DNA of 46,193 nucleotides from the NCBI GenBank assembly GCA_017441205.1, contig JAFRYG010000061.1:1-46193 (forward strand). The letters run 5' to 3'. The notes below the pieces were generated by a model. The model was not told where the DNA came from. It was given only the letters and a program-made list of their open reading frames with translations, and made no database searches. Source of the DNA: Pseudomonadota bacterium (lineage in GTDB: Bacteria > Myxococcota_A > Bradymonadia > UBA4248). Of this stretch, positions 3,873-40,849 are shown in pieces (the first letter of the stretch is position 1; every line of letters begins with the position of its first letter). Position numbers and translations under genes: made by a program.

Positions 3873-4490
3873 ATGATTAAGCGTGAATTGAGCATAGTAT
3901 TTATTGTGGTTCTGATGACCATGACGGGATGCAAATGCGAAGAGCCTCAATGCCCCGCCTGTGACTGCCCGGCTGCAGCATGTGCCGAAGCTCCGGCTCC
4001 CGAAGCCGCTGTTCCCGAAGCACCTGCTCCCGAAAAAGCCGAAGTCCCAGCCCCTGCTGTTGCAGAAACACCGGAAGCAGAACGCGATCTCGAAGGCCAG
4101 AAAGAAGTTTTTGATTTCATCAAAAAACAAAAAACCTATTACCTCGCTACCGTCGAAAAAGATCAGCCTCGCGTACGTCCCTTCGGGACTATCGAATTAT
4201 TCGAAGGCAATCTGTATATTCAAACCGGCCGCAAAAAGAACGTCTCCCATCAAATGGACGAAAACGGAAAAATCGAATTATGTACTTTTGATGGTGAACG
4301 CTGGCTTAGACTGTCTGCAACTGCTGTTGCCGATGACAGAATCGAAGCCCAGACGCACATGCTCGATGCCTACCCCGATCTCAAAAAGATGTATCAGCCC
4401 GGCGATGGCAATACTGTCGTTTATAAACTCATCAACGTCACAGCAACATTCGATACCTTCGGCGCCGAACAGCGCGTGATCCATTTTTAG
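3873..4490 (+). CDS. Lipoprotein with PNPOx-like split-barrel domain
   Basis: A 205-residue protein. The N-terminus is a signal with lipobox MTGC (acyl Cys at residue 20). Five more cysteines follow within 17 residues (22, 27, 30, 32, 37), then an Ala/Pro/Glu linker to about residue 70. The C-terminal 130 residues, from EVFDFIKKQKTYYLATV to TFDTFGAEQR, look like the pyridoxamine 5'-phosphate oxidase-like FMN/F420-binding split barrel (strand motif YYLATVEKDQPRVRPFG, then NVSHQM). Proteins of this type are usually cytoplasmic flavoproteins with no signal, so export and lipidation are unusual. The substrate is unknown; a role in redox or cofactor binding at the envelope is inference. The stop codon TAG overlaps a 14-bp direct repeat. 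Confidence 0.85.
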   Translation: MIKRELSIVFIVVLMTMTGCKCEEPQCPACDCPAAACAEAPAPEAAVPEAPAPEKAEVPAPAVAETPEAERDLEGQKEVFDFIKKQKTYYLATVEKDQPRVRPFGTIELFEGNLYIQTGRKKNVSHQMDENGKIELCTFDGERWLRLSATAVADDRIEAQTHMLDAYPDLKKMYQPGDGNTVVYKLINVTATFDTFGAEQRVIHF

Positions 4491-4573
4491 GGAATCTCTG
4501 AACTATTGGGATTAATTCTTGGCTATGTACAGCTACTGTGTTGCTCATAGCTTAGAGCCAGGGAATCTCTGAA
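4489..4573. repeat. 14-bp direct repeat pair after the PNPOx-like gene
   Basis: AGGGAATCTCTGAA occurs at 4489-4502, overlapping the stop codon of the upstream gene, and again at 4560-4573, 71 bp later. After each copy the bases stay similar (CTATTG and TAATTG). The sequence between them has no gene. The pair may be scars of an inserted element, because GGGAATCTCTGAA-like ends are reminiscent of some insertion sequence termini. That reading is weak. Confidence 0.6.
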
Positions 4574-39413: not shown

Positions 39414-40574
39414 TTAGGCTTTCAACGCATCGATCTTATCTGTGCGTTCCCAGGAAAAGAAGCCATTTTCTGCCTTGCGGCCGAAATGACCGAAGCTGGC
39501 CGTCGGCGAATAAATCGGGCGAAGCAGATCGAGCGAACGAATGATGCCGGCCGGTTTAAGTTCGAAGCAACGGCGAACCCTGCGTTCAATTTCATCTTCC
39601 GGAATCGTCGAAGTTCCAAAGGTATTGACCAGAACCGAAACGGGCTCTGCAACGCCGATGGCGTAGGCCAGCTGAACTTCGCAGCGGCGAGCCAGGCCTG
39701 CGGCCACGACGTTTTTGGCCACATAGCGAGCCATATAGCAGGCAGAACGATCGACCTTGGAAGGATCTTTGCCCGAGAATGCACCGCCGCCGTGACGTCC
39801 CATGCCGCCGTAAGTATCGACGATGATCTTGCGCCCGGTCAGTCCGCAGTCACCCTGCGGGCCGCCAATGACGAAACGTCCCGTCGGATTGATGTGGTAC
39901 TTGGTGTCTTTGGTCAGCAGATTCGCCGGAAGGGCTTTCTTGATGATCAGTTCCATGACGGCTTCATGCAGATCTTTTTCGGAAACATCAGGACTGTGCT
40001 GTGTCGAAACGACGACAGCATCGATGGACTGAACTTTTCCGCCGCCATAGCGCACGGTCACCTGGCTTTTGCCATCGGGACGCAGGAAATCGAGTTCATT
40101 GCGGTTGCGGGCTTCCGAGAGACGGCGCGTCAGCGCGTGTGCATACATAATGGGAGCAGGCATCAGCTCGGGCGTTTCGTCACAGGCAAATCCAAACATC
40201 AGTCCCTGATCGCCTGCGCCCTGTTCACTCACGACACCCTTGCTCGGATCGACGCCCTGGCAGATATCCGGACTCTGGGCTTCGACATCCACCATCACGC
40301 CGCACGTTTCGTAATCAAATCCTTTAAGTGAGCTGTTGTAACCAATTTTTTTAATCGTATTGCGGGCAATGCTTTGAATATCGACATAAGCGGATGTCGT
40401 GACTTCACCGGCAACAATCACGATGCCGGTTTTGAGAAGTGTTTCGCATGCCACATGGCAGTGTTTATCCTGTGCGAGGATGGCATCCAGAATCGCATCG
40501 CTGACCTGATCGGCCATTTTATCGGGATGTCCTTCTGTTACGGATTCACTAGTAAAAAGAAATTCTCTATCCAT
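39414..40574 (-). CDS. metK: S-adenosylmethionine synthetase
   Basis: A 386-residue enzyme that makes SAM from methionine and ATP in the cytoplasm. All family signatures are present: [35 protein letters not shown] and [17 protein letters not shown]. The ribosome binding site AAGGAAAAAATA precedes the ATG. It has its own promoter about 250 bp upstream, a SAM-II-type aptamer in the leader and its own terminator, so it is a single-gene unit likely under feedback control by its product. Confidence 0.98.
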
Positions 40575-40679
40575 TATTTTTTCCTTATAAGGCGTTCAGC
40601 CCATCATGGGCCTCCACCCCGCATAAACTCCAGCGAGGCGTTGCGGCTCCTGTTCCACACAAACCAATACACTCGAGGT

Positions 40680-40730
40680 TCAGTCAAACCTCACGATAAA
40701 ACGACACTTCAGGGTGTTCATTCAAGACAT
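40680..40730 (-). other. Two overlapping small ORFs in the metK leader
   Basis: Downstream of the aptamer, AAGGAGAG lies five bases before ATG-TCT-TGA (40730-40722). A second ATG, overlapping that stop at 40721, opens a 13-codon frame (MNTLKCRFIVRFD, stop at 40680-40682). The spacing is right for translation. Their presence means the Shine-Dalgarno site next to the SAM-II core belongs to these small frames and not directly to metK, whose ATG is about 150 bases on. Coding status is unproven. Confidence 0.5.
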
Positions 40731-40735
40731 GCAAT

Positions 40736-40788
40736 CTCTCCTTTTTAGCGATGTTTACAGGTTCGCAATATGGACAAATCAACCTGTC
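40736..40788 (-). promoter_or_regulatory. SAM-II riboswitch (aptamer) in the metK leader
   Basis: Read on the - strand, the leader contains ACAGG-TTGATTTGTCC-ATATTGCGA-ACCTGT-AAACATC-GCTAAAAAGGAG. This matches the SAM-II core as I remember it: a first helix (here ACAGG/CCTGT), the loop TGATTT, the internal TATTGC, and the 3' GCTAAAAAGG that pairs back to form the pseudoknot. SAM-II binds S-adenosylmethionine and hides the downstream ribosome binding site. Its place ahead of metK supports the call. It lies about 160 bases before the metK ATG, with small frames between. Confidence 0.85.
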
Positions 40789-40820
40789 GCCGGAAATTCC
40801 GGCTCACACAAAGTGGGAGT

Positions 40821-40849
40821 ATCCTAGATTTATGTTCATGTCATGTCAA
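40821..40849 (-). promoter_or_regulatory. metK promoter
   Basis: On the - strand, TTGACA (40849-40844) and TAGGAT (40826-40821) are separated by 17 bases, a near-consensus sigma-70 promoter. Transcription would start near 40814 and run through the SAM-II aptamer into metK. Confidence 0.75.

Follow-up and report, generated by a model that had tools for sequence, protein, structure and literature searches.

An element resembling a SAM-II riboswitch precedes metK, the gene for S-adenosylmethionine synthetase, with its Shine-Dalgarno sequence placed before a frame of two codons and with metK starting 156 nt beyond the first AUG, which raises the question of whether, and by what route, the element controls metK. 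The reading we favour, at a probability of roughly one half, is a translational SAM-II riboswitch in the metK leader that acts on metK indirectly, through the upstream ribosome site. The window, meaning the whole stretch of 46,193 nucleotides analysed, is one complete contig of a draft assembly (G000; 4.36 Mb, 221 contigs). The metK product contains the three SAM synthetase domains recognised by Pfam, its ATG at 40574 agrees with the start in relatives, and it is the sole SAM synthetase match found in G000. A second, divergent SAM synthetase-like gene (∼33% identity to MetK) is present in three relatives (G002:C291, G004:C199 and G006:C277) and was not found in G000. As the earlier note had claimed, the aptamer core (40781-40740) lies between a strong promoter (40849-40821) and metK. 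Transcription would start near 40814, a TTGACA box is also observed upstream of metK in relatives, and promoter prediction gave nothing from the aptamer to metK. Read along the minus strand, the leader thus runs from the promoter through a hairpin, UGAUUUGUCCAUAUUGC-GAACCUGUAAACAUC-GCUAAAAAGGAG, AUG-UCU-UGA and more leader to metK, with the following features:

40821-40849, minus strand: promoter TTGACA-17-TAGGAT, matching 10 of 12 sigma-70 consensus bases
40789-40803, minus strand: small hairpin GCCGGAATTTCCGGC just 5' of the aptamer, seen in the sequence and present in predicted folds
about 40738-40787, minus strand: SAM-II-type aptamer, from Rfam scan, alignment, covariation, shuffles and homology
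40787-40781 with 40763-40757, minus strand: P1, 7 bp
40773-40772 (CC) with 40741-40740 (GG), minus strand: P2a, 2 bp
40766-40765 (GC) with 40749-40748 (GC), minus strand: pseudoknot
40738-40743, minus strand: Shine-Dalgarno AAGGAG, its GG inside P2a; the stretch pairs with the anti-Shine-Dalgarno at -9.9 kcal/mol
40722-40730, minus strand: mini-ORF ATG-TCT-TGA, beginning 9 nt after the GG, the ATG spacing of three intact sister copies
40680-40721, minus strand: 13-codon frame MNTLKCRFIVRFD, beginning at ATG 40721 immediately behind the TGA, in frame with the mini-ORF; open only
40684-40725, minus strand: 13-codon frame LNEHPEVSFYREV from TTG 40725, sharing 4 nt with the mini-ORF; open only
40582-40587, minus strand: metK's own Shine-Dalgarno UAAGGA, 7 nt before the ATG; -6.2 kcal/mol
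39414-40574, minus strand: metK, S-adenosylmethionine synthetase, 386 aa

Shortly before metK, a second mini-ORF, ATG-ATG-GGC-TGA (40607-40596, minus strand), is also observed after GGAGG, lying within a GCCCATGATGGGC hairpin.

The aptamer core, TGATTTGTCCATATTGC...GCTAAAAAGG, occupies 40781-40740 of the minus strand, and the pattern TGATTTNNCCNTATTGCN{6,36}GCTAAA has a single occurrence in the 46 kb and none in 100 dinucleotide shuffles. In the model scan that the earlier note had called for (cmscan of 501 bases against 4227 families), SAM_alpha (RF00521) is the best match, at 23.4 bits and E=0.0039, but remains below its gathering cut-off of 36 bits. SAM-V (RF01826) is second with 23.1 bits against a cut-off of 41, the long-loop SAM-II variant scores lower, and no match anywhere in the window reaches the Rfam gathering scores. 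The metX SAM-II RNA, reportedly crystallised by Gilbert et al. in 2008, is also below the SAM-II cut-off, its locus L106 scoring 34.1 against 36. This RNA, the sequence of which was taken from PMC8494917, is contained in L106. Because the crystallised RNA misses the cut-off too, the latter is treated as too strict to define membership. In the SAM-V crystal structure, SAM is contacted by the U8-U10 strand, A18, U20, U47, A48 and A50, and the binding mode of SAM-II is described as virtually identical (PMC6061858). Alignment to the published consensus indicates that all of these contact bases are present in the window aptamer, in which L3 is short.

Relatives of the element were collected by scanning one genome for each of 84,980 species with TGATTTNNCCNTATTGCN{6,36}GCTAAANAGG. 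The 96 loci recovered are nearly all from Pelagibacteraceae, the remainder being Marinimicrobia, one SAR86 and two Myxococcales MAGs, the latter being the same-genus genomes G001 and G005. Pelagibacteraceae copies mostly precede one gene, read as homoserine O-acetyltransferase of the metX type, and Marinimicrobia copies precede a gene read as metH, both names coming from a reading of the protein starts without a family search. Downstream of the copies in Pelagibacter and Marinimicrobia there is a hairpin and a T-run. The core pattern was also matched by two viral contigs; these carry one identical sequence that has no P1 and is apparently part of a reading frame, and they were dismissed as chance. 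A weak match in G224 (L160), which runs into a reading frame, likewise has the appearance of a chance hit. In another myxobacterial family, locus L182 (G219:C183) contains a SAM-II-like element at 1237-1312 (28.3 bits, below cut-off) followed by a SAM-I/IV riboswitch at 1447-1594 (47.5 bits, above cut-off), and what lies downstream of the tandem, at 1681, is a gene for a MoxR-like AAA ATPase and not a recognised methionine gene.

In an alignment of 13 copies, 24 columns are invariant and the SAM-binding bases in GAUUU, UAUUG and GCUAAA are identical throughout (contacts from PMC6061858). Taken together, the P1 and pseudoknot pairs are formed in 91% of cells, and 23 cells are changed on both sides compared with 8.4 in shuffles, none of 500 shuffles being as good and slid controls being far lower. 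P1, enclosing the UGAUUU..UUGC loop, is therefore kept through compensatory change, as is required of a SAM-II. Combined, the core, the contact bases and the P1 covariation strongly support the assignment to SAM-II made in the earlier note. We are highly confident that the window element is a SAM-II-type aptamer, and it very likely binds SAM. A pseudoknot that only resembles a SAM-II, or an aptamer whose ligand has changed, would fit the scores below all Rfam gathering cut-offs and the sister copies described below, the genes of which have no known methionine link. This explanation is nevertheless very improbable in view of the shuffles, the identical contact bases and covarying P1, the position before metK, and the crystallised SAM-II RNA that itself misses the cut-off.

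The majority of SAM-II RNAs work at the level of transcription, and their P2a tends to be long; a smaller group, among them the crystallised metX RNA, is described as translational, with a 2-bp P2a at the Shine-Dalgarno sequence as in SAM-V (PMC6061858). In the window, P2a is a 2-bp CC/GG helix with its GG inside AAGGAG, and no terminator-like site was found on the minus strand from aptamer to metK. For these two reasons the unit is, judged by its sequence, of the translational SAM-II type. It shares with the translational metX RNA (PMC8494917) the core UGAUUU..CC.UAUUGC..GCUAAAAAGG, the H-type pseudoknot pairs and the 2-bp P2a holding the Shine-Dalgarno, and differs in its shorter L3, P1 sequence and myxobacterial host, in having metK as the next full gene and in the two-codon frame at the riboswitch start site. 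With SAM-V, which has been described in marine alphaproteobacteria and Bacteroidetes and there frequently follows a SAM-II, it shares the SAM contacts and the Shine-Dalgarno directly in the closing helix, but it falls below the SAM-V gathering score and is not in tandem.

The lack of a terminator also bears on how a signal could reach metK. The earlier note had offered transcription polarity as one route. Under such a model the SAM-bound leader would go untranslated, and transcription would be halted ahead of metK by Rho or an intrinsic terminator. Beyond the mini-ORF the leader is indeed long and for the most part untranslated. However, the translated part would amount to at most ∼50 nt, no terminator-like site was found, and the leader contains no C-rich Rho region, as over 78 nt C is at no point more frequent than G (best C minus G = -1). 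Polarity is thus highly improbable, and this part of the earlier proposal finds no support in the sequence.

Downstream of the aptamer, the ribosome binding site, AAGGAG at 40743-40738, precedes ATG-TCT-TGA at 40730-40722, and metK follows with its own site, UAAGGA at 40587-40582, both as described previously, the 156 nt agreeing with the earlier estimate of about 150. The overlapping 13-codon frame proposed there corresponds to the frame from TTG 40725, which does overlap the mini-ORF; there are, however, two such frames, the second, from ATG 40721, lying beyond the mini-ORF without overlap. No comparative support was found for either, openness being the one feature that marks them. Pairing with the anti-Shine-Dalgarno is stronger for the aptamer's stretch than for metK's own (-9.9 versus -6.2 kcal/mol). 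The aptamer Shine-Dalgarno serves the mini-ORF, not metK. The riboswitch has an immediate frame of two codons and could act on metK only indirectly. Since a separate UAAGGA precedes metK, the mechanism is not a direct occlusion of that site.

The origin of this arrangement can be viewed through copies in genomes of the same genus. A covariance model built from the 13 copies, run against 57 genomes of the class, detects the element only in G000 (one copy), G005 (one copy) and G001 (three copies in a row on a 6.5-kb contig):

G001:C221 (L086), 2196-2141, 1521-1464 and 1028-972: sister copies
G005:C9 (L128), 4462-4518: sister copy

In three of the four the core is intact and the ATG lies exactly 9 nt beyond the GG, matching the window. 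In each of the three, the ATG opens a gene of an orphan, Cys-rich family (188-291 aa; MSEEIR..VDLSDRSVDLS) that is zinc-ribbon-like and without a known methionine link, and for which no relatives were found in phage records or viral contigs and no defence-family match was obtained. The aptamer Shine-Dalgarno therefore stands directly before the regulated gene in the intact sister copies and not in the window. The fourth copy, in G001, has a mutated core, CTCTGAAAAAGG; its ATG lies 6 nt beyond the GG, and the 126-aa frame downstream of it is unrelated. Protein coding was rejected as the cause of sister-copy conservation, since a frame open through two copies is broken in a third by a one-base difference. 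Because three intact sister copies open genes at the same 9-nt spacing, the window ATG is probably the natural start site of the module.

The same comparison gives rise to the main rival, in which a unit derived from an orphan-type gene, or one that had served such a gene, ended up in the metK leader while the gene belonging to it degenerated into ATG-TCT-TGA, leaving an aptamer that may bind SAM with little effect on metK. It is the main rival because the sister metK leaders that could be read (G001, G002, G004 and G005) are all without the aptamer; metK was not matched in G003. That a single assembled genome shows the aptamer before metK is the chief weakness of the favoured reading. The window and the sister copies are homologous only within the aptamer (40786-40737), the sister copies precede orphan genes, two of the three intact copies are followed by genes that begin with the same ATGTC as the window, and metK has a ribosome site of its own, all of which agrees with a relic or passenger. 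Conversely, the core is intact and P1, at 7 bp, is the longest among the genus copies, the others having 3-5 bp, whereas one sister copy is visibly decayed, and arrival before metK of all genes would be a coincidence. We consider this history rather unlikely. The metK leaders of G004 and G002 (L002, L003) contain a common hairpin-rich stretch ∼100 bases before metK, GGCATG...ATGCC followed by GGGA...TCCC, which differs from the aptamer and could be another regulatory element.

Base pairing between the aptamer and the metK start offers a further route, an ON switch in which the aptamer 3' strand pairs with the metK start in the absence of SAM and is released upon SAM binding. The minimum-energy fold does pair GCUAAAAAGGAGAGAUU, from the aptamer 3' strand, with metK codons 5-10, and positions +4 to +20 of metK are more open under the SAM-bound constraint (0.42 versus 0.20). 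The pairing energy is, however, at chance level, as 6.4% of synonymous recodings and 4% of random 60-mers are as good, and the metK starts of aptamer-free relatives reach -20.9 and -19.7 kcal/mol compared with -20.5 in the window. Constrained folds gave no clean switch at the metK start, and ON is the wrong sign for metK feedback. This route is hardly credible.

What remains is ribosome loading or leader translation acting on metK initiation or mRNA stability, and control of metK through leader translation, as raised in the earlier note, is possible. In the translational riboswitch that we favour, the RNA would close into the pseudoknot at high SAM and hide the Shine-Dalgarno inside P2a. At low SAM the open Shine-Dalgarno would recruit 30S subunits to ATG-TCT-TGA and the abutting frame. 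metK, 156 nt further on with its own ribosome site, would be affected indirectly, most likely by the upstream site loading ribosomes onto the leader through standby, restart or mRNA protection, such that metK output would fall when SAM is high. The position of the element before a SAM synthetase gene favours control of metK; against it, the Shine-Dalgarno of metK itself is well spaced, and the gene may do without the upstream one. On this balance the aptamer probably influences metK, and the odds are about even that it does so through the distant Shine-Dalgarno and mini-ORF.

The closest precedent, an experimentally tested one, is Sinorhizobium meliloti metA, in which the SAM-II Shine-Dalgarno is required even though initiation takes place 74 nt further on; abundant SAM there reduces translation and also makes the mRNA more stable (Scheuer et al. 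2022, PMC9373788). Output at a distance thus has a precedent for SAM-II. Both leaders have a SAM-II Shine-Dalgarno with a nearby AUG and the real gene far downstream. They differ in that in metA the distance is 74 nt, AUG2 is in frame with AUG1 and inactive alone, and a terminator lies between them (PMC9373788), whereas in the window the distance is 156 nt, a stop follows after two codons, no terminator is present and metK has a good Shine-Dalgarno. The stop codon after two codons excludes a simple in-frame extension. SAM-I, SAM-III, SAM-VI, SAM/SAH and SAM-Chlorobi riboswitches also provide SAM feedback before metK, with unrelated folds, and none of them was matched in the window by the Rfam scan. 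Published accounts assign SAM-II chiefly to alphaproteobacteria and marine groups, with metX, metY/Z and metA as its genes, and no report of SAM-II on metK or in myxobacteria was found in the literature searched.

These observations indicate that the Rfam SAM-II cut-off misses compact members of the family. If the Shine-Dalgarno that serves the mini-ORF still controls metK, this leader would join S. meliloti metA as a second example of a riboswitch governing initiation at a distance. For the genus, a doubtful but broader picture is that the compact translational SAM-II unit is a portable module, with copies before orphan zinc-ribbon-like genes, several of them consecutive, and another positioned ahead of metK. 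There, SAM would be read through a two-codon leader ORF that sets ribosome loading 156 nt downstream.
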